Assembly: GCF_001577755.1 (NCBI RefSeq)
Contig: NZ_CP010776.1
Location: 3,968,001 to 4,032,000, forward strand
Source: Rufibacter sp. DG15C
GTDB lineage: Bacteria > Bacteroidota > Bacteroidia > Cytophagales > Hymenobacteraceae
DNA: 64,000 nt
Direction of reading: 5' to 3'
The position numbers were made by a program, and so were the translations under genes. Under the pieces are notes generated by a model. The model ran no database searches. It had not been told where the DNA came from and was given only the letters and a program-made list of their open reading frames with translations. Below, piece by piece: positions 3,355 through 60,783 of this stretch (position 1 is its first letter; each line of letters opens with the position of its first letter).

Positions 3355-3392
3355 CGTTTTTAGGCTGTTTTCTGTAAAACAGGCCAAAAACG
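3355..3392. repeat. 38-nt interspersed palindrome, copy 1
   Basis: Complete copy starting CGTTTTTAGGCTG and ending CAGGCCAAAAACG, 70 nt beyond the tktC stop and directly after a separate terminator hairpin. Confidence 0.9.
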
Positions 3393-3490
3393 AAACTGAG
3401 TTCTGGCCAACCTTAGTAACTTGCTACATGATTTCTTTAAGCGGTTTATTTTTATTGAAAACTGTTTACTGCTAACTGTTCACTGTCCTC

Positions 3491-4030
3491 TTGGAAGACC
3501 ACGAGATACTTTCCAAATTCCAGAATCCGGACTCCCGGAACCTGGCCTTCAACCAACTGGTGCGCAAGTACCAGCAGAAGGTGTATTGGCATATCCGGAA
3601 GATGGTGGTGGACCATGACGACGCCGATGACCTGACCCAAGAGGTATTCGTGAAAATCTGGACGAAACTGGAGACGTTCAGGCAGGACGCGCAACTCTAC
3701 ACCTGGATTTACCGCATTGCCACCAACGAGTGCCTCAACTTCTTGAACGCCAAAAAGAAGCGCTTCTTCCTGCCCATCCATGACGTGGCCGCCGAACTGG
3801 CAGAGAAGCTGGACAACTCAGACACCCTTTCTGGCGATGAGATCCAATTGAAACTACAAAAGGCCCTGGTGCGTCTGCCTGACAAACAGCGGCTGGTCTT
3901 TAACATGAAGTATTTTGACGAGCTGAAGTACGAGGAAATCTCCGAGATTCTTGGCACCTCAGTGGGCGCACTAAAGGCCTCCTACCACATCGCCGTGAAA
4001 AAAATTGAAGAGTTTTTGAAGGCAGATTAA
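3491..4030 (+). CDS. ECF-type RNA polymerase sigma factor, cassette A
   Basis: 179-aa sigma-70 family protein with region 2 (about residues 14-82, including the DDADDLTQEVF core-binding helix and LYTWIYRIATNECLN) and region 4 (about 118-176, LRLP-like PDKQRLVF and YEEISEILGTSVGALK helix-turn-helix). It lacks regions 1 and 3, as ECF factors do. The chosen start is TTG at 3491; there is no closer ATG that keeps the N-terminus. It is followed by a single-span membrane protein and a Spy-like protein, an order repeated at 44144-45686 by clear paralogs. I infer that the membrane protein is the anti-sigma factor. Confidence 0.9.
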   Translation: MEDHEILSKFQNPDSRNLAFNQLVRKYQQKVYWHIRKMVVDHDDADDLTQEVFVKIWTKLETFRQDAQLYTWIYRIATNECLNFLNAKKKRFFLPIHDVAAELAEKLDNSDTLSGDEIQLKLQKALVRLPDKQRLVFNMKYFDELKYEEISEILGTSVGALKASYHIAVKKIEEFLKAD

Positions 4031-4065
4031 ACCCTACCTGCCAAAACCCATCTAAACCCTTGAGT

Positions 4066-4512
4066 ATGAAAGAAGAGTTTGATTTAAATAGCTTACCTAA
4101 GCATCATGGCTACCAGGTGCCAGAGGACTACTTTGACAAGTTGCCCCTGCGCATCATGCAAAGAACGGCCTATGCAGCCCCGGTAGCCCAACCGCAGACT
4201 GCCTGGTTCTGGCAGTTGAAGACCGCGTTTGCCGGTGCGGGCTTGGCCTTGGTGTTTGCAGCTTCTTTCTTAATCACGCAGTACACAGACCAGACGCTTT
4301 CTACCCAAGAGGCCATGGCCCAGGTGTCGCAGAAAGATATTTACCAGTACTTAGTTAACCAGGAAGACTTGCAAACCGCAGACTTAGCTGAAGTGACCGC
4401 CGTGAACCCTTCCCAGTCTCTGGAGTTCCTGGACGTGCGCACCGAGGACGTGAGCGAAATAGTCACCCAGGAGATGCTGGAAGAACAAATGGAAACAACC
4501 CCTAATCAATAA
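4066..4512 (+). CDS. Single-span membrane protein, probable anti-sigma factor, cassette A
   Basis: 148 aa from the ATG at 4066 (preferred over a TTG two codons upstream because the paralog at 44608-45141 also starts MK-[DE]-EFDL). A cytoplasmic N-terminus with a YQVPxxYF-type motif (16-23) precedes one transmembrane segment at about 48-70. An acidic periplasmic tail follows. Position after a sigma gene, membrane topology and conserved N-terminal motif suggest it sequesters the sigma factor; it has no zinc-finger anti-sigma signature, so this is inference. It stops 2 nt before the Spy-like gene. Confidence 0.7.
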   Translation: MKEEFDLNSLPKHHGYQVPEDYFDKLPLRIMQRTAYAAPVAQPQTAWFWQLKTAFAGAGLALVFAASFLITQYTDQTLSTQEAMAQVSQKDIYQYLVNQEDLQTADLAEVTAVNPSQSLEFLDVRTEDVSEIVTQEMLEEQMETTPNQ

Positions 4513-4514
4513 GA

Positions 4515-4976
4515 ATGAAATTCAAGAGTATTCTCACCCTGTGCGTCCTGCTTTTCTGGGCGGCTTTCACGCAGGTACAAGCGCAGACAAAAAAGGAAAC
4601 CCCTGAGGAGCGCAAGGCCCGTTACGAGAAAATCAACAACGCCAAGATTGCCTTCATCACAGACAATGTAAAAATGTCTACGGAGCAGGCGCAGCGGTTC
4701 TGGCCTATTTATACTGAGCACGAGTCCCGTAAGCGCGAACTGCGTCACAAGGCTAAGCAGTTCAGAGACGAAAACATTGGCTCCATGACCGATGAGCAGA
4801 TTCAAGCCGGTTTGGAAAGCCGCCTAGCCAACCGCCAGCGGGAACTAGACGCCGAAAAAGAATACATGGAGCGGTACCTTAGAGTAATTACGCCGCGCCA
4901 GTTGGCTCAATTTTACCGCGCAGAACGCGAGTTTACCCAACTCTTATTACAGCGTCTGCAGACGGCAAGCAAGTAA
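4515..4976 (+). CDS. Periplasmic Spy/CpxP-like protein, cassette A
   Basis: 153 aa with a signal peptide (residues 1-23, cleavage before Q24) and a highly charged all-helical mature part. Spy-type LTxxQ-like motifs are visible as MSTEQAQRFWP near 53 and ITPRQLAQFYRAE near 125. Spy/CpxP/CnrX proteins form hooked helical hairpins and serve as chaperones or envelope-stress/metal sensors. Being third in a sigma/membrane/Spy cassette, it may be the periplasmic sensor or a target of the system. A strong terminator follows 24 nt after the stop. Confidence 0.75.
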   Translation: MKFKSILTLCVLLFWAAFTQVQAQTKKETPEERKARYEKINNAKIAFITDNVKMSTEQAQRFWPIYTEHESRKRELRHKAKQFRDENIGSMTDEQIQAGLESRLANRQRELDAEKEYMERYLRVITPRQLAQFYRAEREFTQLLLQRLQTASK

Positions 4977-5000
4977 CATTTCGTTTGGTTTAGTTTTATG

Positions 5001-5032
5001 AAAGGGAGGTCTATGGCCTCCCTTTTGTTTTT
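5001..5032 (+). terminator. Intrinsic terminator after cassette A
   Basis: AAAGGGAGG pairs with CCTCCCTTT around a 7-nt loop and is followed by TGTTTTT, so it is a textbook hairpin plus T-run. The T-run doubles as the left arm of the next palindromic repeat. Confidence 0.85.
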
Positions 5033-5063
5033 GGCCTGTTTTCTGGGAATCAGGCTAAAAACG
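5026..5063. repeat. 38-nt interspersed palindrome, copy 2
   Basis: Copy with arms GTTTTTGGCCTG and CAGGCTAAAAAC, beginning inside the T-run of the preceding terminator. The outermost C is replaced by T. Confidence 0.85.
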
Positions 5064-5120
5064 AATTCTAAAAATCACCAGACTCAAGACTCGCGACTCT
5101 AGACTCAAGACTATAAAAGC

Positions 5121-5128: not shown

Positions 5129-5146
5129 CGGCTTAATCCGTTTGCT

Positions 5147-6340
5147 ATGCTTTCTGCCCGTCAACTCTTTTTGCAACACCAAGCCCAAACCACAGACTTT
5201 CCGCTACTCCTAGAAGTGGAGCGCGCCGAGGGCGTGTTCATGTATGGTCCTAACGGCGAAAAGTACTTGGACTTGATTTCGGGGATTGGCGTAAGCAACG
5301 TGGGCCACCGGCACCCGAAGGTCATCTCCGCCATTGAAGATCAGTTGGGCAAGTACCTGCATTTAATGGTGTACGGCGAGATTGTGCAGGCCCCGCCGGC
5401 GCAGTTGGCCCACGCCTTGGCGCAGACGCTTCCAGCTGGATTAGATAACGTGTATTTTGTATCCTCGGGCAGTGAGGCCATAGAAGGTGCCATGAAACTG
5501 GCCAAGCGCTTTACAGGCCGCACGGAGATTATCGCTTTTGACAAAGCCTACCACGGCTCCACTCAGGGAGCCCTGTCCTTGAACGGCGCCGAGAGCTTTA
5601 AACGGTCCTTCCGGCCACTGCTGCCAGACGTAAACCACCTTCAACACAACCACCTACCCGACTTAGAGAAAATCACCCACAGAACTGCAGCCGTTGTAAT
5701 AGAAACTGTCCAAGGCGAAGCCGGCGTACGGGTTCCCAGCAAAGATTATATGAAAGCTTTGAGGGCCAGATGCACCGAAGTGGGCGCTCTTTTGGTCCTA
5801 GATGAGATTCAGTGTGGCTTTGGTAGAACAGGCACGTTTTGGGCATTTGAGCAGTTTGGCATTACCCCAGATATCTTGACCTGCGCCAAAGGAATGGGCG
5901 GCGGCATGCCCATTGGGGCTTTCATCTCAAGACAAGAAATCATGCACAGCTTCAAGAATGACCCGATGCTGGGGCATATTACCACGTTTGGCGGGCACCC
6001 GGTTTCCTGCGCGGCTTCTCTGGCTACGCTTAAGGTTATTCAAGAAGAAGGCCTGCTGAATCAGGTCAACGCCAAGGCTGAACGCTTTAAGCAACGCCTC
6101 ACGCATCCAGCCATCAAGAGCATCAGGAACCTGGGTTTGATGATGGCCGCTGAGATGGAGTCGTTTGAGGTATTGAAAGCCGTGATTGATACAGCCATCT
6201 TAAAAGGAGTGCTTACCGACTGGTTCCTCTTCTGTGACAATTCCATGCGCCTGGCTCCTCCCCTTACTATCACCTTTGAAGAGATTGACTTGGCCTGCGA
6301 CATCATCTTAGAGGCCATTGAAGAGCACGTCCATTTTTAG
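5147..6340 (+). CDS. Class III (PLP-dependent) aminotransferase
   Basis: 397-aa fold-type I aminotransferase of the acetylornithine/4-aminobutyrate group. The PLP-binding lysine is K248 in CAKGMGGGMPIGA, preceded by D219 in LVLDEIQCGFGRTG; SSGSEA (106-111) binds the phosphate. Substrate cannot be read from sequence: no arginine-biosynthesis neighbours are present, so ornithine, lysine or another omega-amine is possible. The ATG at 5147 is preferred because a -7 promoter element lies just upstream. The stop codon TAG lies inside the left arm of a 38-nt palindrome (6332-6369). Confidence 0.88.
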   Translation: MLSARQLFLQHQAQTTDFPLLLEVERAEGVFMYGPNGEKYLDLISGIGVSNVGHRHPKVISAIEDQLGKYLHLMVYGEIVQAPPAQLAHALAQTLPAGLDNVYFVSSGSEAIEGAMKLAKRFTGRTEIIAFDKAYHGSTQGALSLNGAESFKRSFRPLLPDVNHLQHNHLPDLEKITHRTAAVVIETVQGEAGVRVPSKDYMKALRARCTEVGALLVLDEIQCGFGRTGTFWAFEQFGITPDILTCAKGMGGGMPIGAFISRQEIMHSFKNDPMLGHITTFGGHPVSCAASLATLKVIQEEGLLNQVNAKAERFKQRLTHPAIKSIRNLGLMMAAEMESFEVLKAVIDTAILKGVLTDWFLFCDNSMRLAPPLTITFEEIDLACDIILEAIEEHVHF

Positions 6341-6369
6341 GCTATTTTCCGGAAAACAGGCCAAAAACG
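6332..6369. repeat. 38-nt interspersed palindrome, copy 3, containing a stop codon
   Basis: Left arm CATTTTTAGGC includes the aminotransferase stop TAG at 6338-6340; right arm GGCCAAAAACG. The last two sense codons (encoding H and F) are therefore also repeat sequence. Confidence 0.9.
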
Positions 6370-8262: not shown

Positions 8263-8300
8263 CGTTTTTGGGGTATTTCCCAGAAATTAGGCTAAAAACG
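8263..8300. repeat. 38-nt interspersed palindrome, copy 4
   Basis: CGTTTTTGGGGTA / TTAGGCTAAAAACG, starting 3 nt after the transporter stop. The inner stem is weakened by mismatches. Confidence 0.85.
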
Positions 8301-10756: not shown

Positions 10757-10778
10757 TTCTTTTTCCTACAAATATTTA

Positions 10779-10831
10779 TCAGCCTCGTTTTAGACCTGTT
10801 TCACAGAAAACAAGCCAAAAGCGAGGCTGAT
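10779..10831. repeat. 38-nt interspersed palindrome, copy 5, with extended stem
   Basis: The core is 10786-10823 (CGTTTTAGACCTG / CAAGCCAAAAGCG). The flanks TCAGCCTCG and CGAGGCTGA lengthen the stem, so this copy probably acts as the pfkA terminator. Confidence 0.85.
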
Positions 10832-11311: not shown

Positions 11312-11349
11312 CGTTTTTGGCCTATTTTTCAGAAAGCAGGTCAAAAACA
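11312..11349. repeat. 38-nt interspersed palindrome, copy 6
   Basis: CGTTTTTGGCC / GGTCAAAAACA between two convergent stops (37 nt from one and 28 nt from the other); flanks ACAT/ATGT extend the pairing. Confidence 0.85.
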
Positions 11350-21854: not shown

Positions 21855-21900
21855 AAGCCGTTTTTGGCCTGATTTCTAAATATCAGGCTAAAAACGGCTT
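21855..21900. repeat. 38-nt interspersed palindrome, copy 7, with extended stem
   Basis: Core 21859-21896 (CGTTTTTGGCCTGA / TCAGGCTAAAAACG), extended by AAGC/GCTT. Lies between convergent genes and is the only terminator-like structure there. Confidence 0.88.
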
Positions 21901-25692: not shown

Positions 25693-26986
25693 GCCTTTCT
25701 GTTTTTTTCGGATTCCGGGGATTCTCTTATTCAGCCTTCTGCCATTTTTAGCCTGTTTTGGGCAAAATAGCCCGAAAACGGATTCTACCTATCTCTTAAA
25801 ACCAGACCGCGTTTTTGATGGCCATGACCTGCATCAGAACTGGGCGGTGGTGGTACAGGGAGACCGTATCCTGATGGCAGGACCAGCGAATACTATAACC
25901 CCGCCAGCCAATGCCCGCACGATCACCCTTGCAGGGCAGACGCTTATGCCCGGGCTTATTGAAGGCCACTCGCATCTGCTATTGCATCCCTATAATGAGA
26001 CCTCCTGGAACGACCAGGTCTTAAAAGAATCAGATGCCTTACGCGTGGCCCGCGCCACCGTGCACGCCCGCAACACGCTCCTGGCCGGCTTCACCACCGC
26101 GCGTGACTTAGGCTCTGAAGGTGCTGAATACGCAGACGTGGGCCTGAAGCAGGCCATTGAACAGAACATCATCCCCGGCCCGCGCATGCTGGTAGCCGGC
26201 AAGGCCATCATTGCCACCGGGAGCTACGGTCCTAAAGGCTTTGACCCCGCGTTTGAAGTGCCACAGGGCGCCGAGGCCGCCGATGGCGTGGACAACATCA
26301 TCAGGGTGGTGCGGGACCAGATTGGCAAAGGCGCCGATATCATCAAAGTATACGCCGACTACCGCTGGGGACCTAATGGTGAGGCCCTGCCAACGTTCAC
26401 CGTAGCGGAGCTGAAACTAATGGTAGAGGTGGCCGCCAGCAGCGGAAGGCCTGTGGTGGCCCACGCCAGCACGCCAGAAGGCATGCGCCGCGCCGCCGAG
26501 GCAGGAGTAGAAACCATTGAGCACGGCGATAGCGGCACCCCCGAGGTCTTTAAACTAATGGCCAAGAAAGGCGTGGCGCTCTGCCCTACCCTAGCCGCCG
26601 GCGACGCCATCTTGCAATACAACGGCTGGCGCAAGGGCCAGGACCCGGAGCCTGCCCGCATCACGCAGAAACGCGAAAGTCTAAAAGCCGCCCTGTCTGC
26701 GAAGGTTCCCCTTTGCGTAGGCGGAGATGTGGGCGTTTTCACCCATGGAGACAATGCCCGAGAGCTGGAATTACTAGTGGACTACGGCGTACCTACGCTG
26801 GACGTTTTAAGAGCCGCCACCGCTGGAAACGCCAAGCTATTCCACTTGGACCAGAAGCTGGGCAAAATCCAGAAAGGCCTATTGGCGGACCTGATCTCTG
26901 TAGATGGCAACCCCTTGCAGGATATTTCAGCTACCAGAAAAGTAAGGCTGGTCATGAAAGGCGGCGTGCTATACAAACAACCTTAA
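25682..26986 (+). CDS. Exported amidohydrolase (prolidase/imidazolonepropionase-like)
   Basis: 434-aa metal-dependent amidohydrolase. The metal-binding HSH motif is in GLIEGHSHLL, histidines follow in VVAHAS and IEHGD, and the catalytic Asp is in VGGDVG. Such proteins (Xaa-Pro dipeptidase/imidazolonepropionase group) cleave dipeptides or cyclic amides. An N-terminal signal peptide (about residues 1-27) ends ACFG before Q28. Residues 21-33 of this peptide are encoded by a copy of the 38-nt palindrome (25743-25780), so the cleavage region appears to be built from a repeat. Overlaps PhzF by 11 nt, so co-translated. Confidence 0.88.
   Translation: MFRKPFCFFRIPGILLFSLLPFLACFGQNSPKTDSTYLLKPDRVFDGHDLHQNWAVVVQGDRILMAGPANTITPPANARTITLAGQTLMPGLIEGHSHLLLHPYNETSWNDQVLKESDALRVARATVHARNTLLAGFTTARDLGSEGAEYADVGLKQAIEQNIIPGPRMLVAGKAIIATGSYGPKGFDPAFEVPQGAEAADGVDNIIRVVRDQIGKGADIIKVYADYRWGPNGEALPTFTVAELKLMVEVAASSGRPVVAHASTPEGMRRAAEAGVETIEHGDSGTPEVFKLMAKKGVALCPTLAAGDAILQYNGWRKGQDPEPARITQKRESLKAALSAKVPLCVGGDVGVFTHGDNARELELLVDYGVPTLDVLRAATAGNAKLFHLDQKLGKIQKGLLADLISVDGNPLQDISATRKVRLVMKGGVLYKQP
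25743..25780. repeat. 38-nt interspersed palindrome, copy 8, inside a coding sequence
   Basis: CATTTTTAGCCTGTTTT then AAAATAGCCCGAAAACG, in frame within the amidohydrolase signal peptide. Its left arm matches copies 19 and 20 and its right arm matches copy 10; internal pairing is imperfect (about 12 of 17 pairs). Confidence 0.85.
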
Positions 26987-27007: not shown

Positions 27008-27065
27008 AGCGGTCCGGCGTTTTCGGGCTACTTTTTAGAAAGTAGCCCGAAAACGCCGGACCGCT
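27008..27065. repeat. 38-nt interspersed palindrome, copy 9, perfect 27-bp stem
   Basis: Core 27018-27055. The two 27-nt arms pair without a mismatch around the loop TTAG. The family's usual GGCC is replaced by CGGG on one side and CCCG on the other, keeping pairing. Probable terminator of the PhzF/amidohydrolase operon. Confidence 0.95.
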
Positions 27066-27385: not shown

Positions 27386-27423
27386 TTGTTTTGGCTTATT
27401 TTCCAGAAAATAGCCCGAAAACG
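27386..27423. repeat. 38-nt interspersed palindrome, copy 10
   Basis: TTGTTTTGGCTTATTTT / AAAATAGCCCGAAAACG, ending 2 nt from the DUF2461 stop. Confidence 0.85.
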
Positions 27424-28368: not shown

Positions 28369-28406
28369 TGTTTTCAGCGTATTCCCCAGAAAACAGCCCG
28401 AAAACG
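28369..28406. repeat. 38-nt interspersed palindrome, copy 11
   Basis: TGTTTTCAGCGTA / ACAGCCCGAAAACG, ending 6 nt from the anti-sigma stop. Its left arm is the most diverged of the intergenic copies. Confidence 0.75.
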
Positions 28407-30056: not shown

Positions 30057-31436
30057 ATGCCCATCCAAACCATCAATCCTTATACCAACCAAGTTGTCAA
30101 AGACTTCGCTCCGGCCACCCCACAAGCCATTGAGCAGGCATTGCAGACCGCCCAAGAGACCTTTGACAACTGGAGGACCTCAGACTTTATGCTCCGCGCC
30201 CAGCTCATGCACAAAGCCGGCAGCGAGCTGGACGGCAACACGGAGCATTACGCCCGCCTGATCTCCTTGGAAATGGGTAAGCCTCTAGCACAAGCCCGCG
30301 CCGAGGTGCAGAAATGCGCCAAGGTCTGCCACTATTACGCAGAGCATGCCCAGGAATTTTTGCAGGACGAGGACATAGTCACCGCCGCTACCCGCAGCTT
30401 CATCAGCTATGAGCCCATGGGCGCGGTACTAGCCGTTATGCCCTGGAATTTTCCGTTCTGGCAGGTCTTCCGGTTTGCCGCGCCGGCCCTGATGGCGGGA
30501 AACGTGGGTATTTTAAAGCATGCCTCCAACGTTCCACAGTGCGCACTGGCAATCCAGGAAGTGTTTGAGAAAGCCGGCTTCCCGAAAGGGTGTTTCCAGT
30601 CCTTGCTCATCGGGTCTAAAGAAGTGGAGACGCTTATCAAGGACCCGCGCATCAAGGCCGTGACGCTGACGGGCAGTGAGGGCGCCGGCGCCACCGTGGC
30701 CTCTACCGCCGGAAGAGAAATCAAGAAAACCGTGCTGGAACTGGGCGGCTCAGATGCATTCATTGTGCTGGCAGACGCGGACATAGAGGCCACAGCGGAG
30801 AAAGCCGTGCAGGCCCGCCTCATCAACACCGGCCAAAGCTGCATTGCTGCCAAGCGTTTTATTATAGAAAAATCCATCGCCGAGCCGTTTATGGCCTCCT
30901 TTTCTGAAAAGATGCAAAAACTGAAAACCGGCGACCCTTTATCAGACGAAGGAATTGACTACGGACCGCTGGCCAGAGTGGACCTGGCCCAGGAACTCAC
31001 CGACCAAGTGGAGCGCTCTGTGAAAGCTGGCGCTCAACTCCTACTCAAAGGCGGTCAGGAAGACAAGGACAGTGCGGTGTTCCATCCGGCTATTTTGACA
31101 AACATTGAGAAAGGAAATCCCGCCTATGAAGAGGAATTCTTCGGGCCGGTGGCCTTGGTGTTTATAGCGAAGGATGCCGAAGACGCCGTACGCATTGCCA
31201 ATGATTCTCCCTTCGGGCTGGGAGGCTCCATTTGGACCAAGGACCTAAAGCGCGGGCAGGAACTGGCCAGGAAAGTAGAGGCCGGCGCCGTGTTTGTGAA
31301 CGCCATGGTGGCCTCTGACCCGGCCCTGCCGTTTGGGGGCATCAAGAAATCTGGGTACGGCCGGGAGCTTTCTTATGTGGGCATCCGGGAATTTGTAAAC
31401 CAGAAAACCATCTGGCTTAGCACGCCTCAGGAATAG
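30057..31436 (+). CDS. NAD(P)-dependent aldehyde dehydrogenase, succinate-semialdehyde type
   Basis: 459-aa aldehyde dehydrogenase. Catalytic C262 in NTGQSCIAAKR, general base E228 in VLELGGSDAF, N131 in MPWNFPFWQ. The MPWNFPFWQVFRFAAPAL pattern and the short length fit the Sad/YneI-like succinate-semialdehyde dehydrogenases that oxidise the GABA-shunt intermediate, but no GABA aminotransferase is adjacent. Its 3' end overlaps the convergent YdcF-like gene by 10 nt. Confidence 0.88.
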   Translation: MPIQTINPYTNQVVKDFAPATPQAIEQALQTAQETFDNWRTSDFMLRAQLMHKAGSELDGNTEHYARLISLEMGKPLAQARAEVQKCAKVCHYYAEHAQEFLQDEDIVTAATRSFISYEPMGAVLAVMPWNFPFWQVFRFAAPALMAGNVGILKHASNVPQCALAIQEVFEKAGFPKGCFQSLLIGSKEVETLIKDPRIKAVTLTGSEGAGATVASTAGREIKKTVLELGGSDAFIVLADADIEATAEKAVQARLINTGQSCIAAKRFIIEKSIAEPFMASFSEKMQKLKTGDPLSDEGIDYGPLARVDLAQELTDQVERSVKAGAQLLLKGGQEDKDSAVFHPAILTNIEKGNPAYEEEFFGPVALVFIAKDAEDAVRIANDSPFGLGGSIWTKDLKRGQELARKVEAGAVFVNAMVASDPALPFGGIKKSGYGRELSYVGIREFVNQKTIWLSTPQE

Positions 31437-32191
31437 CCTAGTAGCTTGTAGGTGATCACCCCTACCCACTCATGGATGATGCGGGTCCAGTCGCGCAGGG
31501 CTTCGGCGGTGGGGATGAGTAGATCGTCTAGGTGGAAACTTCTATCGTGGGTCTGAAAGTCGGCGGGAAACGTGTCGAAGGTCAGGCCCACTTTTTCAAA
31601 ACAGCCCTGAGCGCGCCGCATATGAAACGCCGAGGTGATCAATAGCAGCTTCTGAACTTCTGGGTGCTGGCCCAGCAGTTCCTTGGTGAATTGGGCGTTC
31701 TCTCTGGTGTTCTTGCTGAGCTGCTCTAGCAAGATGTCCTGCTGCGGGACGCCAGCAAACAGCGCGGTCTGCTGCAGGCTTTCGGCCTCAGTTCTGGCTA
31801 CATTTTTAATAGCCCCCGACCCACCCGAGATGATGATTTTTTTGACCTTGCCCATCTTGTAGAGCTGCACGGCATCCAGAATCCGCTCGGCGCCTTCTTG
31901 GTAATGCACCCGGTCATGCGGGGAACGGTTAGGCTCAGTCACGCCGGTGAGGACAATGGCAGCGTCATAGGTTTTCACGTCTTTCATCAGCACTGCCTCG
32001 GGCTCCCAGGCTAGCCAGACCTCATTAGAGATAAAGGGATTAGAAAAGAAGAACAGCAAGACCAAGCCAATCCTGAATGCCCATCGCTTTTTCACCTGAT
32101 TCCGGGAAAACAGGCCAAAAACGAAAAACGCCATGATCCAGAGAAACGGCGAGGTGAAATACTGCAACAGCTTGGAGAGGATAAAGAACAT
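31427..32191 (-). CDS. YdcF/DUF218-family membrane protein
   Basis: 254-aa protein with two N-terminal membrane segments (about 13-28 and 37-55) and a DUF218 domain: AAIVLTGVTEPN near 79, IISGGSGA near 122, ENAQFTKELL near 160, LLITSAFHMRRA near 182. Family members such as ElyC/SanA act in cell-envelope biogenesis; the precise role is unknown. Residues 23-36, the end of the first segment and the following loop, are encoded by a 38-nt palindrome copy (32086-32123). Confidence 0.85.
   Translation of the reverse strand: MFFILSKLLQYFTSPFLWIMAFFVFGLFSRNQVKKRWAFRIGLVLLFFFSNPFISNEVWLAWEPEAVLMKDVKTYDAAIVLTGVTEPNRSPHDRVHYQEGAERILDAVQLYKMGKVKKIIISGGSGAIKNVARTEAESLQQTALFAGVPQQDILLEQLSKNTRENAQFTKELLGQHPEVQKLLLITSAFHMRRAQGCFEKVGLTFDTFPADFQTHDRSFHLDDLLIPTAEALRDWTRIIHEWVGVITYKLLGYS
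32086..32123. repeat. 38-nt interspersed palindrome, copy 12, inside a coding sequence
   Basis: Right half CAGGCCAAAAACG is perfect; the left half (GCTTTTTCACCTGATT) is partly diverged. In frame on the minus strand it encodes FVFGLFSRNQVKKR of the YdcF-like protein. Confidence 0.8.
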
Positions 32192-32554: not shown

Positions 32555-32592
32555 CGTTTTCGGCCTGCTTTCCGGAAAACAGGCCGAAAACG
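32555..32592. repeat. 38-nt interspersed palindrome, copy 13
   Basis: CGTTTTCGGCCTGC / CAGGCCGAAAACG. The T-to-C change in the left arm is matched by A-to-G in the right arm, preserving the pair. 38 nt from the topB stop. Confidence 0.92.
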
Positions 32593-32630: not shown

Positions 32631-35096
32631 TTAGTCAAACAGATAGACTACTTTAAACTCCTCGTTCAACTTTAAGGCGGCGTCAAAGCTATTGCCGGTT
32701 TTAGGCGAGATGAAGCCTTTGATCTTGCCGGTCTTGCCTTTGAGGATGAGCGCGGCAATGTGGCTCTCATTGAGCGTGCGGCCGTGCAATTCAAATGGCA
32801 CCACAAATTGGCACCCCTCCCTGAACCGGCTGCAGCCATAGGCGCTCTTGCCCTTCAGCATTTGGCCCTGCTGGCACTTGGGGCAGATCCAGACAGATGG
32901 ATTTTTCACCTTGGGCTCGGCCTTGTCTGGTTGCAGCCCAAAGGCACCGTCTAGCACCGCGGCGGCATCCAGTTTTTCGCCGGAGGTAGGGTCCACCAAG
33001 CCTTTGATGACCGGGGTTTTTCCCTTTTTAAGGAGAGCCTGCACGTGCTTCTCGGTGAGCAGTTTCCCCAGCCAGGTCATAGGCAGCCTGAACTGGCAGC
33101 CCTCCTTATAGCGGGCGCAGCCGTAGGCCTGGCTGCCCTTGACTACGTGGCCGGTTTTGCAGACAGGGCACGCCCCTAACCCTACCGTGGAGGAGGTTCC
33201 GTTTTTGGCCTCTTTTTTGGGTTTCGGCTCTTTTCTGGCGGGTTCTTTGGCCGCGGGTTTAGCCGCTTCCATGGGCTGCAAGGTCACCGACGAGCGGTCC
33301 TGCTTTACCTCCTGCACCATCTCTTCCACCAACTGCTGCAGCTCGCGTAGAAACTCTGTGGCCTCAAACTCGCCGGCCTCTATCTGGCGCAGCTTCTTCT
33401 CCCATTGCCCGGTCATCTCGGCAGATTTTAGAGTGGGGTTTCTAATCACTTGTATCAGGTCGATGCCGGTCTGGGTGGGTAGGATTTTTTTCTTCTCTTT
33501 TCTAATATAATTGCGTTTGAAGAGCGTCTCAATAATGGCCGCGCGCGTAGAAGGCCTACCAATGCCGTTTTCCTTGAGGGCTTCTTTTAACTCGTCATCG
33601 TCCACTTGCTTGCCCGCCGTCTCCATGGAGCGCAGTAAGGTCGCCTCGGTGTAGTCTTTGGGCGGGCTGGTCATCTTACGTTCCAGCAAGGGCGCGTGTG
33701 GGCCGCGCTCGCCGGCGTCAAAATGTGGCAATACCGCTAGTTCTTCTTCCTTCTCCTCTCCTTCTGCCGTAGTTTTTGGTGTAGTTGGTTTGGCTGGGGT
33801 TTTGGTTTCTTCCTGGGCATAGACTACGCGCCAGCCGGGTTCCAGAATCTGCTTGCCTTTGGCCCGGAATGCGTGGTTGGCCGCCTCACCGTTCACCACC
33901 GTGTTACTCACAATACAGTCTGGGTAGAATGCGGCGATGAACCGTTTGGCCACCAGGTCAAACACCTTGGCCTCGGTGCCATATAGATTGCCCGCCGCCG
34001 CGCCCGTGGGTATGATGGCGTGGTGGTCAGTGACTTTATTGTTATTGAAGACCTTGGCAGATTTTCTGATCTTCTTGCCCTGCAGTTCCTGCGTCAGGTG
34101 GCTGTACTCGCGCAAGCCACTTAAGATGTTCGGAATTTTAGGATAAATGTCGTCTGGCAGGTAAGTGGTGTCCACCCTTGGATAGGACACCACTTTCTTC
34201 TCATAAAGGCTTTGCACTGTCTTGAGCGTCTCGTCTGCCGACATGCCAAACTTGTTGTTGCACTCCACCTGCAGAGAAGTCAAGTCAAACAACCTAGGCG
34301 AACTCTCCGTGCCTTTCTTGGTTTCTACGTCTTTGATTTCAAACTCTGAAGGCTTGATCTGCTCCAGAATGGCCATCGCCTTTTCCTCGTCCTTGAAACG
34401 GCCGTTGGTGCTGCTGAACGTCACGTCGCGGTAGACGGTCTTCAATTCATAAAACGGCTCGGGCTTGAAGTTGAGAATCTCCAGGTGGCGCTGCACAATC
34501 ATGGCGAGGGTGGGCGTCTGCACACGGCCCAGCGAAAGCAGCTGCCGGCCCTGCGCGTACTTCAATGTGAAAAGGCGCGTGGCGTTGATGCCCAGGAGCC
34601 AATCACCAATGGCGCGGCTTCTGCCGGCCTGGTACAGCTGGTCAAACTCCTTGCCGTCGCGCAGCTTGGAAAAGCCTTGTCTGATGGCCTCTTCGGTCAA
34701 GGAGGAAATCCATAATCGCTTGACGGGTTTGCGGCAGCGTGCCTGGTGCAAGACCCAACGTTGGATTACTTCTCCCTCCTGCCCGGCATCCCCGCAGTTG
34801 ATGACTTCGTCTGCACCGTCAATCAGTTTTTTGATGACCTTGAACTGCTGCGCTACCCCTTTGTTCTGAATGAGTTTGATGTCAAACTTCTCAGGCACCA
34901 ACGGCAGGTCTGGCAGGTGCCAGCGCTTCCAGTGGGGATTGTAATCATCTGGCTCGTTGAGCTGGCAGAAGTGCCCGAACGTCCAGGTGACCTGGTAGCC
35001 GTTGCCTTCAAAATAACCGTCTTTCCGGCTATTGGCTCCAATCACATGGGCAATTTCACGGGCTACGCTGGGTTTTTCGGCAATGCAGACTTTCAA
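32631..35096 (-). CDS. topB: DNA topoisomerase III
   Basis: 821-aa type IA topoisomerase that passes single strands to decatenate or relax DNA. TOPRIM acidic motif DAGQEGE at 103-109, catalytic Y305 in SYPRVDT. A Lys/Pro/Ala-rich linker (about 610-640) leads to two C-terminal zinc-ribbon-like repeats, CPVCKTGHVVKGSQAYGC and CPKCQQGQMLKGKSAYGC, each followed by a short domain starting near GLVDP or GFISP. Start is TTG at 35096; no in-frame ATG precedes MKVCIAEKPS. A half copy of the 38-nt palindrome lies immediately upstream. Confidence 0.93.
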   Translation of the reverse strand: MKVCIAEKPSVAREIAHVIGANSRKDGYFEGNGYQVTWTFGHFCQLNEPDDYNPHWKRWHLPDLPLVPEKFDIKLIQNKGVAQQFKVIKKLIDGADEVINCGDAGQEGEVIQRWVLHQARCRKPVKRLWISSLTEEAIRQGFSKLRDGKEFDQLYQAGRSRAIGDWLLGINATRLFTLKYAQGRQLLSLGRVQTPTLAMIVQRHLEILNFKPEPFYELKTVYRDVTFSSTNGRFKDEEKAMAILEQIKPSEFEIKDVETKKGTESSPRLFDLTSLQVECNNKFGMSADETLKTVQSLYEKKVVSYPRVDTTYLPDDIYPKIPNILSGLREYSHLTQELQGKKIRKSAKVFNNNKVTDHHAIIPTGAAAGNLYGTEAKVFDLVAKRFIAAFYPDCIVSNTVVNGEAANHAFRAKGKQILEPGWRVVYAQEETKTPAKPTTPKTTAEGEEKEEELAVLPHFDAGERGPHAPLLERKMTSPPKDYTEATLLRSMETAGKQVDDDELKEALKENGIGRPSTRAAIIETLFKRNYIRKEKKKILPTQTGIDLIQVIRNPTLKSAEMTGQWEKKLRQIEAGEFEATEFLRELQQLVEEMVQEVKQDRSSVTLQPMEAAKPAAKEPARKEPKPKKEAKNGTSSTVGLGACPVCKTGHVVKGSQAYGCARYKEGCQFRLPMTWLGKLLTEKHVQALLKKGKTPVIKGLVDPTSGEKLDAAAVLDGAFGLQPDKAEPKVKNPSVWICPKCQQGQMLKGKSAYGCSRFREGCQFVVPFELHGRTLNESHIAALILKGKTGKIKGFISPKTGNSFDAALKLNEEFKVVYLFD

Positions 35097-35103
35097 GGTA
35101 TTC

Positions 35104-35125
35104 TAGTAAAAAGAGGTCAAAAACG
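35104..35125. repeat. Half copy of the 38-nt palindrome
   Basis: Right arm AAGAGGTCAAAAACG is intact just upstream of the topB TTG start. The expected left arm would lie in the start of the gene and is not recognisable. Confidence 0.5.
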
Positions 35126-39274: not shown

Positions 39275-39313
39275 CGTTTTTTAGCCTGATTTCCAGAAAA
39301 CAAGCCAAAAACG
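39275..39313. repeat. 38-nt interspersed palindrome, copy 14 (39 nt)
   Basis: CGTTTTTTAGCCTGA / CAAGCCAAAAACG, one extra T in the left arm; ends 3 nt from the histidine kinase stop. Confidence 0.88.
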
Positions 39314-41480: not shown

Positions 41481-41518
41481 CGTTTTTGGCCTGGTTTCTG
41501 GAAAACAGGCCAAAAACG
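41481..41518. repeat. 38-nt interspersed palindrome, copy 15
   Basis: CGTTTTTGGCCTGG / CAGGCCAAAAACG, close to consensus, with flanking CC/GG pairs. 17 nt from the efflux-pump stop. Confidence 0.95.
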
Positions 41519-42967: not shown

Positions 42968-43005
42968 CGTTTTTGGCCTTTTTTCTGGAAAACAGGGCAA
43001 AACCG
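42968..43005. repeat. 38-nt interspersed palindrome, copy 16
   Basis: CGTTTTTGGCCTTTT / AACAGGGCAAAACCG. The only copy in a divergent intergenic region, i.e. not downstream of any stop. Confidence 0.85.
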
Positions 43006-44072: not shown

Positions 44073-44134
44073 ATGGCACGTCCCCGTTTTTAGGCTGATT
44101 TTCAGAAATCAGCCTAAAAACGGGGACGTGCCAT
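44073..44134. repeat. 38-nt interspersed palindrome, copy 17, perfect 29-bp stem
   Basis: Core 44085-44122. Two 29-nt arms pair perfectly around TCAG. Lies between two convergent stops (26 and 21 nt from the core) and presumably terminates both. Confidence 0.96.
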
Positions 44135-45141: not shown

Positions 45142-45686
45142 ACTTCCTTCATCATAAATGCCTTGACCTTGCTGCTAGCCAGGTGATAATTGGTCTTCAG
45201 TGCAGAAACGGAACTATCCAGAATCTTGCTTATCTCCTCATAAGGCAGCTCATCATAATAGCGCAGGTTAAAAACCAGCCGCTGTTTTTCGGGTAACCGA
45301 AGAATGGCTTCTTGCAACTGCACCAAAATCTGGTCACTGTCGCCGGCGCAGGTATCATGGAGGGTGTCTACCAGTTTTTCATTGATTTCCTCAAAAGAGG
45401 CCAAAAACCGTTTCCGCTCCCTAAACAGGCGCAGGCATTCATTGGTAGCCACGCGGTAGAGCCATGTATACAATTTGCTGTCGCCGGTGAAGGTGTGCAG
45501 GTGTTTGTATACATTAATAAAAGTCTCTTGTAACAGGTCCTGAGCGTCTTCATGGCTGACCACCAACCGCCGTATGTGCCAGTAGATTCTGGTGTTGTAC
45601 CGGTCCATCAAGAGCGTAAAACCCCTGTCTTTGGTGCCAGCCGCCCGAAACAGCGACAAGATTTGCTCATCTGTTGTCTCGTTCAT
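45138..45686 (-). CDS. ECF-type RNA polymerase sigma factor, cassette B
   Basis: 182 aa from ATG 45686, which has an AGGTGG ribosome-binding-like sequence just upstream (a longer frame starts at 45731). Regions 2 (HEDAQDLLQETFINVYKHL, LYTWLYRVATNECLRLF) and 4 (PEKQRLVFNLRYYDELPYEEISKILDSSVSALKTN) match the cassette A factor closely. The linker between them (FLASFEEINEKL) is encoded by sequence similar to the 38-nt palindrome (45374-45408). Preceded by an ECF-like promoter that is mirrored on the divergent lipoprotein gene. Confidence 0.9.
   Translation of the reverse strand: MNETTDEQILSLFRAAGTKDRGFTLLMDRYNTRIYWHIRRLVVSHEDAQDLLQETFINVYKHLHTFTGDSKLYTWLYRVATNECLRLFRERKRFLASFEEINEKLVDTLHDTCAGDSDQILVQLQEAILRLPEKQRLVFNLRYYDELPYEEISKILDSSVSALKTNYHLASSKVKAFMMKEV
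45374..45408. repeat. Possible degenerate palindrome copy inside the sigma gene
   Basis: On the minus strand GTTTTTGGCCTCTTTT followed by GAGGAAATCAATGAAAAAC. The left half matches the family; the right half is poor. Encodes part of the sigma linker. Could be chance. Confidence 0.35.
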
Positions 45687-47233: not shown

Positions 47234-47271
47234 CGTTTTTTGCCTGTTTTATAGAAAATAAGCCAAAAACG
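47234..47271. repeat. 38-nt interspersed palindrome, copy 18
   Basis: CGTTTTTTGCCTG / ATAAGCCAAAAACG, 38 nt from the GNAT stop. Between it and the cupin gene lies a repetitive TTCTAACTTCACTAC-like phrase. Confidence 0.88.
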
Positions 47272-47309: not shown

Positions 47310-47756
47310 CTATCTCCTAATCATGTGAATGTGGTCAATGCCGTCTTCGTCGTACACGTCACCAGCTTGTTCAAAGCCTAGGTTTTCATAGAATTTGCGG
47401 GCATATACCTGCGCCCCAATTTTAATGGGTCCCGGGCCAAACAGTTTCTGGCAGTGATCTATTGATGCCTGCATGAGTTGCTTGCCCAAGCCTGTTCCTC
47501 TTACCACCTTACTGGTGACTACCCGGCCAATAGATGCTTCTGCATAACTCACGCCAGGGGGCACAATCCTAGCCGAAGCCTCTAATACCCCGTTTTGGTA
47601 TAAGAGCACGTGGTGGCAAAATTGGTCTTTGTTGTCTAGGTCCAGGAAAACGCAATTTTGCTCCATCACAAACACGTCACTTCGCAGGCGCAAGTTGTCA
47701 TATAACTCAAACGGCGAAAAATCCTGGAAAGGCTTACATTGAAGTAGTACTTCCAT
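47310..47756 (-). CDS. ElaA-like GNAT N-acetyltransferase
   Basis: 148-aa acetyl-CoA-dependent acyltransferase. ElaA-type features: LRSDVFVMEQNCVFLDLDNKD near 29, GRVVTSKVVRGTGLGKQLM near 97 (acetyl-CoA loop RGTGLG), and ARKFYENLGF near 124. Substrate unknown. Likely in an operon with its minus-strand neighbours. Confidence 0.9.
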   Translation of the reverse strand: MEVLLQCKPFQDFSPFELYDNLRLRSDVFVMEQNCVFLDLDNKDQFCHHVLLYQNGVLEASARIVPPGVSYAEASIGRVVTSKVVRGTGLGKQLMQASIDHCQKLFGPGPIKIGAQVYARKFYENLGFEQAGDVYDEDGIDHIHMIRR

Positions 47757-56336: not shown

Positions 56337-56374
56337 CGTTTTTAGCCTGTTTTCTGGAAAAGAGACCAAAAATG
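56337..56374. repeat. 38-nt interspersed palindrome, copy 19
   Basis: CGTTTTTAGCCTGTTTTC / AAAAGAGACCAAAAATG, 10 nt from the GH20 stop. Adjacent is a second imperfect hairpin, CGCAGAT..CTCCC / GGGAG..ATCTGCG (56288-56319). Confidence 0.85.
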
Positions 56375-56384
56375 ACTTTTGTTC

Positions 56385-58697: not shown

Positions 58698-58744
58698 GAA
58701 AATGCCTTAACTGTATAGCCAAATGTACACAGAATATGCCCTTC

Positions 58745-58782
58745 CGTTTTTAGCCTATTTTCTGGAAAACAAGTCAAAAACG
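58745..58782. repeat. 38-nt interspersed palindrome, copy 20
   Basis: CGTTTTTAGCCTA / CAAGTCAAAAACG, between CutC (stop 113 nt away) and the GH20 start on the same strand. Confidence 0.9.
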
Positions 58783-58895
58783 ATTAACTGTTTAACATAT
58801 TTTTCCAACTTAAGGACAATCCTCTATCCAAAACCTCTAAGGCGAAGAATTGAACTGGCTAACAATTCAGTTTGTCAGCTATACTTAACCTTTAG

Positions 58896-59666
58896 CTAGG
58901 CCTCATCTAAGAGTTGTCGCATCCTTTTAATTTGCGCAACATCTGCCACCAACTGATCATATTCTGAAATAGGGCTGTTGCTGGACATGGGCGGATAGTC
59001 CTTCCGGAAAACCATTCCCCCTTCTACCCTACTCCGCACAGAGGCGTGCACTTCTCTCACGCCGGTTTGAGTGATAATCGCCTGCACATTGGTTGGATTG
59101 ATGCCACTGCCCGGCATAATAATCATATCACCTCCGGCGCGCTCTTGCAATTTTTGAATAAGTGAGGCACCCTGCAAAGCGGTTTCCTGTTGGCCAGAGG
59201 TAAGCAGGCGGTCAATGTGGAGGGAGAGTATTTGGTCAAGGGCTTCCAGTGGGTTTCGGGTAAGGTCAAAGGCTCGGTGGAAGGTGATGCTCAACGGTCT
59301 GGCGCAGTCTATCAGTTCCTGGGTACCGGCTACGTCAATGTCCCCGTCTTTGGTCAATGCTCCTAGAACCACGCCGTCCACTCCCAATTCTCGGCACAGC
59401 TGAATATCCCGTTTCATGACTTCCATCTCTTCTTTGGAATAGAGAAAATCTCCGCGGCGCGGACGGATAAGGACATGCAGGGGAATGGAAATACTTTCGC
59501 GCACTAGGCTAATCATGCCGGCGCTGGGCGTGGTGCCACCGCCGGCCAAATAATCGCAGAGCTCTACGCGCTGGGCCCCGCCTTGCTCAGCGGCCACCGC
59601 TGAGGCCACCGAGTCAATGCATATTTCCAGGCTGTAAATCTGGTTAGAGCTTGTATTTACCATCAA
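58896..59666 (-). CDS. cutC: CutC-family TIM-barrel protein
   Basis: 256-aa cytoplasmic protein of the CutC family (named for copper homeostasis in E. coli). Family motifs: LEICIDSVASAVAAEQGGAQ near 10, RVELCDYLAGGGTTPS near 32, VLIRPRRGDFLYS near 62, DGVVLGALTKDG near 96, and SITFHRAFD near 126. It overlaps the glycosylasparaginase gene by 23 nt, i.e. is translated with it. Inserted among glycan-degradation genes with no copper genes near, so a role in amino-sugar catabolism deserves consideration. Confidence 0.9.
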   Translation of the reverse strand: MMVNTSSNQIYSLEICIDSVASAVAAEQGGAQRVELCDYLAGGGTTPSAGMISLVRESISIPLHVLIRPRRGDFLYSKEEMEVMKRDIQLCRELGVDGVVLGALTKDGDIDVAGTQELIDCARPLSITFHRAFDLTRNPLEALDQILSLHIDRLLTSGQQETALQGASLIQKLQERAGGDMIIMPGSGINPTNVQAIITQTGVREVHASVRSRVEGGMVFRKDYPPMSSNSPISEYDQLVADVAQIKRMRQLLDEA

Positions 59667-60621
59667 TCAGCTGTTTGCCCTTGGCATCATGCACCGCGTA
59701 GTTAAAGCCTTTGTGGATGCAGTAACCGCCGTACTCGCCTTGTTTGTTGAGGGCAATGAATCCCACCTGCAAATCTTTCACGTCTTTGTGTTTGGCAATG
59801 ATACGCTCTACGGCCAGTTTGCACGCTTTCTCAGGAGAATTCCCTTGGCGCATCAGTTCTACCACCAAGTGACTGCCTACCATTCTGATGACAGCTTCGC
59901 CCAAGCCAGTAGCCGTGGCAGCCCCTACTTCATTGTCCACGAAAAGGCCCGCACCAATGATAGGCGAATCTCCTACCCGGCCGTGCATTTTAAACGCCGC
60001 GCCGCTGGTGGTGCAGGCGCCGGCTAAGTCACCGTTTGCGTCCAGGGCCAGCATGCCAATGGTATCATGATTTTCAATGTTAATGACCGGTTTGTATTTA
60101 GATTCCTTCAGCCAGTTTTTCCAGTCCTTTTCAGATTCAGGGGTGAGCAGGTTCTCTTTCTTGAACCCTTTGGAGATGGCAAACTCATACGCACCCTGGC
60201 CTACCAGCATTACGTGCGGCGTGTCCTCCATCACCTTGCGGGCCACCGAGATAGGATGCTTAATGTGCTGAAGAAACGCGACCGCGCCACAGTTGCTGTC
60301 CTTGTCCATGATGCAGGCGTCCAGCGTCACTTTGCCTTCGCGGTCCGGGTAGCCGCCGTAGCCTACGGTGCGCACCTTGGGGTCTGCCTCGGGTACGCGC
60401 ACGCCAGCTTCTACCGCGTCTAAGGCGCTGCCGTTTTTAGAAAGGACCTCCCAGGCGGCCGCGTTAGCCGGAATGCCGTGATCCCAAGTTGAGATGACAA
60501 TGGGTTTGCCCGGTTTAGCCGAGTTTAGGGAGCCTCCAAAAGCTTTCACAACCTCAAATCCCCCTCCTAAAAAAGTAGCGCTGAGCGCTGATAGTTTTAA
60601 AAATTTACGTCTGCTGCTCAT
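59644..60621 (-). CDS. N4-(beta-N-acetylglucosaminyl)-L-asparaginase (glycosylasparaginase)
   Basis: 325-aa N-terminal nucleophile hydrolase that cleaves the GlcNAc-Asn bond, the last linkage of N-glycoproteins. The self-cleavage/nucleophile site is HD|TIGM with T187; the following GNxxxGACTTSG segment and GRVGDSPIIGAG match the Elizabethkingia and human enzymes. N-terminal twin-arginine signal (SRRKFLK, then a hydrophobic stretch to about 27) indicates Tat export to the periplasm. Upstream partner of CutC. Confidence 0.94.
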   Translation of the reverse strand: MSSRRKFLKLSALSATFLGGGFEVVKAFGGSLNSAKPGKPIVISTWDHGIPANAAAWEVLSKNGSALDAVEAGVRVPEADPKVRTVGYGGYPDREGKVTLDACIMDKDSNCGAVAFLQHIKHPISVARKVMEDTPHVMLVGQGAYEFAISKGFKKENLLTPESEKDWKNWLKESKYKPVINIENHDTIGMLALDANGDLAGACTTSGAAFKMHGRVGDSPIIGAGLFVDNEVGAATATGLGEAVIRMVGSHLVVELMRQGNSPEKACKLAVERIIAKHKDVKDLQVGFIALNKQGEYGGYCIHKGFNYAVHDAKGKQLIDGKYKL

Positions 60622-60745
60622 ATGCGCGTATGGTTTAAATGCTGTAGGAATCTGTTGTCGAATATTCTTTCATGAAGTACCCTATGCCGTGCCTCCCATA
60701 AAATTGACTAGGTTTTAAGCCTCACTTTTGAAGTCCACGCTCTTC

Positions 60746-60783
60746 CGTTTTTAGCTTATTTTCCAGAAAAGAAGCCAAAAACG
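60746..60783. repeat. 38-nt interspersed palindrome, copy 21
   Basis: CGTTTTTAGCTTA / AGAAGCCAAAAACG between GH125 (stop 69 nt away) and the glycosylasparaginase start. Here GCTT pairs with AAGC. Confidence 0.9.

Follow-up and report, generated by a model that had tools for sequence, protein, structure and literature searches.

A 38-bp palindrome family at gene ends of Rufibacter looks more like a docking site for a putative protein than a mobile element or an RNA hairpin

The chromosome of Rufibacter sp. DG15C carries a family of 38-bp palindromes, which looks more like a docking site for a putative protein than like a jumping element or an RNA hairpin. The palindromes occur across the genus, sit at gene ends, have been inherited in place and exist as species dialects, and their two arms are nearly independent and equally conserved; a minority are coupled to ordinary terminators, and copies are rare on the small contigs sampled. 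We lean, at somewhat less than even confidence, towards reading the palindrome as a boundary element, that is, a dyad-symmetric double-stranded recognition site for a homodimeric (or tetrameric) protein of the genus Rufibacter.

Copies in the window and across the genus

The window is the whole 64,000-nt stretch analysed here (NZ_CP010776.1, positions 3,968,001 to 4,032,000). All 21 copies listed by a first-pass annotation were recovered at the same coordinates, and the copy at 39275 was 39 nt long owing to a single extra T. With a cut-off of 14 bits, a symmetric weight matrix gave 23 sites in the window: the 21 and two degenerate ones inside genes, at 30886 and 45372. The copies are as follows (positions within the window, no strand assigned to the palindromes; "minus" marks the strand of the stop).

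3355..3392, palindrome copy, 70 nt past the stop at 3284; an ordinary terminator hairpin adjoins on the upstream side
5026..5063, palindrome copy, 49 nt past the stop at 4976; a terminator hairpin adjoins upstream, in the nearest relative (G009) too
6332..6369, palindrome copy, overlaps the stop of the gene with its end at 6340
8263..8300, palindrome copy, 3 nt past the stop at 8259
10786..10823, palindrome copy, flanked by the arms of an 8-bp outer inverted repeat (10778-10785 / 10824-10831)
11312..11349, palindrome copy, 28 nt past the stop at 11378 (minus); gap called convergent
21859..21896, palindrome copy, convergent gap, 27 nt past the stop at 21831
25743..25780, palindrome copy, 50 nt past the stop at 25692; the listed ORF start of the next gene is probably too long
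27018..27055, palindrome copy, flanked by the arms of a 10-bp outer inverted repeat (27008-27017 / 27056-27065)
27386..27423, palindrome copy, second within one 440-bp convergent gap, after the 27018 copy
28369..28406, palindrome copy, 6 nt past the stop at 28413 (minus)
32086..32123, palindrome copy, within the listed ORF 31427-32191 and close to its start; about 148 nt past the stop at 32272 (minus)
32555..32592, palindrome copy, 38 nt past the stop at 32631 (minus)
39275..39313, 39-nt palindrome copy, 3 nt past the stop at 39317 (minus)
41481..41518, palindrome copy, nearest the consensus among the window copies, 17 nt past the stop at 41536 (minus)
42968..43005, palindrome copy, divergent gene pair on either side
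44085..44122, palindrome copy, flanked by the arms of a 12-bp outer inverted repeat (44073-44084 / 44123-44134)
47234..47271, palindrome copy, 38 nt past the stop at 47310 (minus)
56337..56374, palindrome copy, convergent gap, 10 nt past the stop at 56385 (minus)
58745..58782, palindrome copy, 113 nt past the stop at 58896 (minus)
60746..60783, palindrome copy, 69 nt past the stop at 60853 (minus)

The first-pass annotation had placed 18 copies at a stop codon or within about 115 nt downstream of one; our own gene calls, made with a home-made hexamer caller whose starts are approximate, kept the placement and changed the count to 19 of 21. The two copies it had put inside genes (25743 and 32086) probably owe that status to over-extended start codons, and its single divergent copy, at 42968, was divergent by our calls as well.

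The source genome (G000) is 4.14 Mb, and a 464-kb sample of it held 192 copies, which meant approximately 1,750 copies per genome; mononucleotide shuffles of the same sample gave none. The half-site with up to two mismatches occurred 805 + 835 times genome-wide, and its reversed control 0 times. The family was present in all 16 genomes searched of the genus, which includes Rufibacter immobilis, and the sampled sister genera were without it, so the family had rightly been called lineage-specific. A de novo palindrome search of the sister genera (400 kb, 13 genomes) returned mostly ordinary A-stem-T terminators and one lone copy, and a sparse or very divergent family may exist there. Rfam gave no match in the window at the gathering score. 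Viral carriage was rejected, as one degenerate pattern found no exact match among viral contigs. The covariance-model search scored at most 150 candidates per genome, and its counts are not copy numbers.

Placement between genes and inheritance in place

The copy density was 0.014 per kb in genes versus 2.2-2.6 per kb in co-directional and convergent gaps, and only 7 of 259 G000 copies lay in genes (250 of the 259 were assigned a class). Convergent gaps of 100-500 bp were occupied in 42 of 47 cases in G000 and 30 of 36 in G009, and co-directional gaps in G000 were occupied in 105 of 168 cases at 150 bp or more and in 0 of 77 below 30 bp. One copy per gap was nearly always the rule, and no G000 gap shorter than 250 bp had two. 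In co-directional gaps of 400-800 bp, 54% (G000) and 67% (G009) of the copies were at most 80 nt from the stop, as against 21% and 19% under a uniform null, and divergent-gap copies had a median distance of 104-107 nt from the nearer start. Gap occupancy and near-stop clustering thus bear out the original impression that the copies belong to gene 3' ends.

Several features of this placement count against a boundary protein. Convergent gaps were less often filled below 100 bp (9/24) and above 500 bp (5/11), and co-directional gaps of 150-250 bp showed no near-stop clustering above the null (0.85 vs 0.90; 0.78 vs 0.93). Divergent gaps held 29 of the 259 G000 copies, off the called gene ends.

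The palindrome copies have been inherited in place and their core positions are constrained, as seen in the one relative compared, G009. Among 58 anchored copies, 57 had a counterpart there (90 were tried and 32 unanchored ones left out), and the stop-to-copy distance was conserved (Spearman 0.86, n = 44). In 52 cleaned pairs, identity was 97% at core positions, 64% at variable positions and 43% in the flanks. Chance-corrected identity was 0.145 (0.067-0.228) for the element and 0.212 (0.145-0.270) for the flanks; the element value fell from 0.22 to 0.145 once the ortholog pairs were cleaned, so some replacement of copies is possible.

Five sampled species had a similar copy density and each its own sequence dialect, and the dialects sat at the same loci (9-bit threshold for presence in relatives other than G009; 2 matches in 1,600 shuffled control segments). 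Fits on 19-80 kb of eight further species (G015, G002, G013, G011, G012, G010, G001 and G005) were left unused for low information or inflated counts. The information per site was about 46 bits in G000 and G009 and 35-41 bits in the three other species.

Matched gaps (convergent of at least 100 bp and co-directional of at least 150 bp) were occupied much more often on the chromosome than on small separate contigs, whose nature we assume from their size: 29/49 vs 0/15 on contig 2 in G014, 20/24 vs 1/15 on contigs 4 and 5 in G002, and 11/22 vs 1/7 on contig 2 in G015, and contig 4 of G007 gave 0/7. A conjugation gene was found on G002 contig 4 only, and five proteins of G014 contig 2 had no plasmid hallmark. 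Copies were also fewer in DNA unaligned to G009 (15 in 65 kb) than in aligned DNA (71 in 179 kb).

Arm symmetry and the competing explanations

Arm mismatches per copy were 4.26, compared with 4.256 +/- 0.07 for independently drawn arms, and at co-directional ends the two arms were equally conserved (p = 0.53 and 0.63). Arms that are near-independent and equally conserved suggest that a protein recognises the palindrome symmetrically as double-stranded DNA. The conserved blocks, near positions 5 and 15-16, stand about one helical turn apart, and at positions 10 and 14 a transversion was the commonest alternative, unlike plain mutation. We rejected polarity as an explanation of the centre, which favours TG or CA without following gene direction. 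Two observations count against the protein site: a weak covariation within the 38-mer, described below, and the information per site, which is far above the roughly 11 bits that by our arithmetic would suffice to pick out 1,750 sites in 4.1 Mb and would be unusual for a plain binding site.

Such over-specification, together with the dialects, would fit a molecular drive like that of the DNA uptake sequences of Neisseriaceae and Pasteurellaceae, where a surface receptor favours DNA with the motif, transformation spreads it, dialects follow the receptor and gene ends tolerate it; we consider this rather unlikely here. Evolution in place, near-independent arms, rarity on small separate contigs and the fewer copies in stretches unaligned to G009 all agree with it. 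PMC1852404 and PMC3630211 describe uptake sequences (DUS/USS) as having more than 1,000 copies, species dialects and terminator association, in which the palindrome is alike, and the coupling to terminators recalls that given for uptake signals in PMC1852404. A ComEC homologue is present, but also in 10 of 14 control genomes. However, uptake signals are short, about 9-11 nt in PMC1852404, whereas the palindrome has 38 bp, 7 of 259 copies in genes and few isolated half-sites: only 5 reached 16 bits in the 464-kb sample (1 in the reversed control), and of these 5 one was a palindrome truncated at the edge of a stretch. The count of short words like TTTTTGGCC was modestly above control (16 vs 4). 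So species dialects were found in the five species fitted, but a short motif enriched as single sites was not, and uptake-like single sites were rejected as a candidate. Spacing was no more even than under permuted gap occupancy (CV 0.883 vs 0.781 in G000, 0.835 vs 0.831 in G009), and in G000 it was, if anything, clumped, with 0.978 of the permutations at or below the observed CV. Near-stop clustering in gaps above 250 bp exceeded the tolerance null, and one literature search for uptake signal sequences of Bacteroidetes turned up no paper.

REP or REPIN-like repeats that a RAYT, or some other transposase aimed at hairpins, carried into terminator loops or beside T tracts and that are by now old and fixed are an unlikely source of the family. 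REPs, as passages of PMC3733652 present them, are extragenic palindromes of 20-40 bp with high copy number, mostly in convergent and co-directional gaps, and the 38-mer family falls within this loose definition. The exact nesting of copies at terminator centres and their abutment to T tracts resemble insertion, and 15 of the 16 genomes of the genus contain a Y1_Tnp gene. But G000 itself had no RAYT-type (Y1_Tnp) match at E <= 0.001, where such a gene had been proposed as a check, and 38 of 46 genomes of other genera, which are without the palindrome, have one; this weakens a RAYT-driven origin and is not decisive, since the passages of PMC3733652 see no obvious correlation between RAYT-type genes and REP families and do not strictly require the gene. 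Copies near the Y1_Tnp genes of relatives say little, because gaps so often hold a copy. The flanks of 192 copies had no conserved tetranucleotide of the GTAG/CGTC unpaired-tag type. Further differences from REPs are that positions are common to species (57/58 anchored copies in G009), that gaps hold about one copy each, and that dialects sit at the same loci. A core 97% identical beside flanks of 43% is not how dead insertions would behave. So the family is REP-like if the term is taken loosely, for any extragenic palindrome that is short and present in many copies, but recent mobility finds no support in the shared copies, the conserved stop distance and the nearly empty matched gaps of small contigs. 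BIMEs are gyrase-bound REP clusters of enterobacteria at 3' ends between transcription units; the palindrome shares that site but is mostly single in its gap.

The least probable of the explanations, which we regard as doubtful, is an RNA hairpin at mRNA 3' ends acting as a terminator, RNase target or exonuclease block, and an RNA-processing role had also been proposed at the start. The location at 3' ends agrees with it. Outer stems of at least 6 bp surrounded 8-21% of oriented 3'-end copies vs about 1% of controls, with T-rich sequence afterwards, and outer stems of at least 5 bp with differing sequences recurred at the same places in two species (6 vs 2.1 expected, p = 0.0035); thus the G009 counterpart of the 44085 copy has a 15-bp outer repeat at the same place with a largely different sequence. 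Within the 38-mer, changes on both sides were seen in 48 cells vs 37.2 expected (reached by 10/500 shuffles), a weak covariation, with single positions at z of 3 to 7 (positions 7, 12 and 16 in G000, position 15 in G009) and an overall z of -3.9 in G006. However, pairing in the 38-mer was no higher than in shuffled arms (83.1% of cells vs 82.8%, reached by 122/500), and base pairs gave a covariance model 0.009 bits per position; RNA pairing does not look like the main constraint. The T tract lies in the 5' arm and not past the stem, most copies lack an outer stem, and some copies are in divergent gaps.

Ordinary terminators abut or enclose only a minority of copies. Hairpins ended 0-11 nt upstream of co-directional copies in 18 of 135 cases (G000) and 14 of 99 (G009), with at most 1 downstream-side hairpin at any offset of 0-11 nt; wherever a terminator abuts, the copy comes after it, which again speaks against an RNA hairpin. 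A G+C stem followed by a T tract, as in an intrinsic terminator, was found in the outer-stem subset only and not in the 38-mer itself. Intrinsic (Rho-independent) terminators share the same gene ends and are at times nested with or abutting the palindrome, but the palindrome differs in its conserved sequence and the T tract in its 5' arm, and ordinary terminators are present besides. The fixed length had been taken to argue against independently arisen terminators, and our results support this. Replacement of ordinary terminators was rejected, with no sign of it in their density, which was no lower than in sister genera (27.8 vs 25-40 per 100 kb); this also counts against a boundary protein. 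So does the inconstant place relative to the stop point, as a nested copy would be transcribed before the T tract of its terminator. Any link between the palindrome and termination is a putative one drawn only from position.

A possible boundary system of the genus

If the palindrome is a protein site, the approximately 1,750 copies would mark gene ends and the gaps between chromosomal transcription units, and the bound protein would form a two-sided barrier. It might serve as a backup that stops RNA polymerase at the intrinsic terminator or shortly beyond it, might insulate neighbouring units from each other, or might do both. We infer the protein, its restriction to the genus, its oligomeric state and its action as a barrier, and the dialects may stem from site and protein evolving together. 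The fullest form of this idea, which is possible but which we hold more tentatively, is a genus-private chromosome punctuation, in which one dimeric protein on about 1,750 palindromes, a roadblock or insulator working in both directions, would mark most transcription-unit boundaries of both strands, with site and protein co-evolving into dialects. Such a system would be to bacteria what boundary or termination-factor sites are to eukaryotes.

If the boundary reading is true, it would suggest that palindromes scattered over a genome may form a conserved set of functional sites and need not be a mobile repeat. Tests that tell the two apart are chance-corrected identity compared with the flanks, independence of the arms, distance to the stop, and the filling of matched gaps on other replicons. 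On that reading, a large share of transcription-unit ends would be marked by one protein-bound DNA site, besides RNA hairpins and Rho, and Rufibacter would offer a tractable system for transcription boundaries, insulation and the genome-wide co-evolution of sites with their reader.

Copy number and distribution of the palindrome

All 21 palindromes of the first-pass annotation were found in the window, and the copy at 39275 was 39 nt long. A symmetric weight matrix gave two further degenerate palindromes, at 30886-30923 and 45372-45409, both inside genes and both with counterparts at matching places in the nearest relative (G009); these are either ancient captured copies or coincidences of coding sequence. 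Copy number in the window's genome (G000) was determined on 464 kb, made up of the window and 20 stretches of 20 kb at even spacing, where 192 copies were counted vs 0 in mononucleotide shuffles, which bears out the reading of a family above chance level. Extrapolation from the 169 copies in the 400 kb outside the window gave approximately 1,750 copies per 4.14-Mb genome, and the half-site pattern had 805 and 835 matches genome-wide (reversed control, 0). The palindrome consensus was CGTTTTTGGCCTGTTTTCYRGAAAACAGGCCAAAAACG. Isolated half-sites were scarce in the 464 kb (5 at ≥16 bits vs 1 in the control), short words of the half-site were in modest excess over the control in G000, and no Rfam family matched the window at gathering score.

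The half-site was present in 16 of 16 genomes of the genus with 40 to 2,074 matches per genome, whereas among 104 genomes from the remaining genera of the taxonomic family at least one match was found in 57 and no more than 4 in any, about the level of the reversed control, so the element is specific to the lineage, as had been proposed. A covariance model built from the G000 copies, with up to 150 candidates scored per genome, also had matches in all 16 genomes. When palindromes were searched de novo in 13 of the other-genus genomes (400 kb), ordinary terminators and one lone copy came up. At L115:8561-8598, in a genome (G035) of a genus without the family, a lone near-consensus copy scored 43.6 bits, the next best site in the 60 kb sampled scoring 17.8. 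The degenerate 38-bp pattern, searched in named genomes, which may omit records close to the window's genome, gave one locus, in Rufibacter immobilis. The palindrome sequence differs between species of the genus as a dialect, and with matrices fitted for five species (eight others had too little sequence) the copies per 100 kb were 42.5 in G000, 41.8 in G009, 38.1 in G006, 43.6 in G014 and 46.7 in G003.

REPs are described, in PMC3733652, as palindromes of 20-40 bp with high copy number, most of them with unpaired GTAG or CGTC tags. The element, which had been called REP-like, agrees with this loose definition but does not have the tags; a REPIN persistence model is outlined in PMC8049555. Among the literature matches listed, no description of the family was found for Rufibacter repeats or palindromes, for Bacteroidetes interspersed or repetitive extragenic palindromes (general papers only) or for roadblocks at convergent genes (a review on replication conflicts only).

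Placement between genes and neighbouring terminators

With genes called by a home-made hexamer model, 259 G000 copies were distributed over co-directional gaps (153), convergent gaps (61), divergent gaps (29) and genes (7), and 9 were unclassified. Convergent gaps of 100-500 bp were occupied in 42 of 47 cases in G000 and 30 of 36 in G009; in G000, occupancy was 9/24 below 100 bp and 5/11 above 500 bp. Co-directional gaps in G000 were occupied in 0 of 77 cases below 30 bp and 105 of 168 at ≥150 bp, and divergent gaps of ≥150 bp in 28 of 70, with a median of about 105 nt from divergent-gap copies to the nearer start. Among gaps shorter than 250 bp, none in G000 and one in G009 contained two copies. 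For co-directional gaps of two size classes, 250-400 and 400-800 bp, more copies fell in the first 80 nt after the stop than under a uniform null that keeps a promoter zone free, and no such clustering was found in those of 150-250 bp. Spacing along the chromosome was no more even than under permuted gap occupancy. A degenerate copy at 35088-35125 lies at the 5' end of a topoisomerase III gene, and sites recognisably related to it occupy the equivalent position in G009, G006, G005, G010, G011, G012, G013 and G015.

Ordinary terminators are about as frequent as in sister genera, and those sharing a co-directional gap with a copy usually lie upstream of it or enclose it; a downstream position was found for 1 of 30 G000 cases and 2 of 24 G009 cases. 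Of the co-directional copies, 18 of 135 in G000 had a hairpin ending 0-11 nt upstream of them, as did 14 of 99 in G009; on the downstream side no such offset had more than one. Exact centring in an outer inverted repeat of ≥6 bp was seen for 7.7% of the oriented G000 copies in co-directional gaps and for 18.9% of those in convergent gaps (controls, about 1%), the sequence after the outer stem being T-rich; divergent gaps had no clear excess of outer stems around copies. Outer stems of ≥5 bp were kept at the same places in both G000 and G009 in 6 cases vs 2.1 expected, with largely different sequences. A terminator-like hairpin is thus formed around the element at a minority of sites and not at most.

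Inheritance of copies in place

The ortholog comparison covered 244 kb of G000 and 300 kb of G009, with 68-90% identity in the aligned blocks, and 90 copies were scored, of which 32 were dropped as not anchorable; 57 of the 58 anchored copies had a counterpart, 56 of these distinct. After duplicates and in-gene pairs were taken out, 52 pairs were left, in which stop-to-copy distances correlated at 0.86 (44 pairs) and matched within 10 nt in 75% vs 22% at random. These cleaned pairs were 97% identical at core positions, 64% at variable positions and 43% in the flanks. Shared positions, stop distance and core identity together indicate that the copies are passed down in place, with constraint acting on a fixed set of their positions. 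Chance-corrected identity was 0.145 (0.067-0.228) for the element and 0.212 (0.145-0.270) for the flanks; wholesale replacement of copies by transposition or conversion since the two genomes split is unlikely, and partial replacement is possible. When the gene ends of 20 of the 21 window copies were projected onto distant species, a copy was present in 7/9 testable cases in G006, 7/8 in G014, 7/8 in G003 and 6/7 in G013; remaining species had few testable cases, and the shuffled control gave 2 in 1,600 segments.

Small separate contigs had far fewer copies in matched gaps than the chromosome: 0/15 vs 29/49 in G014 (contig 2), 1/15 vs 20/24 in G002 (contigs 4 and 5) and 1/7 vs 11/22 in G015 (contig 2), with 0/7 on contig 4 of G007. 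Among the small contigs so compared, a conjugation gene (TraG) was found on G002 contig 4 only. Two 7-kb contigs of different species, L158 (G007 contig 5) and L156 (G015 contig 3), carry 3 and 2 copies, and similar copies are common to both. The copies at L093:6348 (G009) and L098:7202 (G014), each within 1 kb of genes of the RAYT-type transposase family Y1_Tnp, are near-identical with identical 12-nt flanks despite different dialects, which suggests recent transfer of the segment. In G000, a 14.7-kb region (C1 4046142-4060849) not aligned to the G009 stretch has 0 copies, and the proteins tested from it include type IX-secreted and RHS-repeat proteins.

Symmetry of the arms and candidate explanations

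The motif could be maintained by an uptake-signal-like drive, and we keep this explanation alive because the information per site, about 46 bits, is far above the need for addressing 1,750 sites; a ComEC homologue is also present, and uptake signals do occur in terminators, as stated in PMC1852404. However, isolated sites are scarce, and this, the copy spacing and the concentration of copies near stops in longer gaps are evidence against such a drive. A palindrome acting as a one-strand RNA signal is unlikely, because both arms were equally conserved at co-directional ends (p=0.53 and 0.63).

Arm mismatch in G000 was 4.26 pairs per copy vs 4.256 expected if the arms were independent, and 83.1% of pairing cells in 100 copies were paired vs 82.8% after shuffling (122 of 500 shuffles as high). 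Changes on both sides were somewhat in excess in these copies (48 vs 37.2 expected, reached in 10 of 500 shuffles), covariation was found at a few single positions, with some overall in G006, and adding base pairs to the model gained 0.009 bits per position. Conserved blocks within each arm were about one helical turn apart. Near-independent, equally conserved arms with this block spacing would be expected of a dimeric protein on double-stranded DNA. We propose that a putative protein of the genus would bind the dyad at the ends of transcription units, where the bound protein may act as a two-sided barrier.
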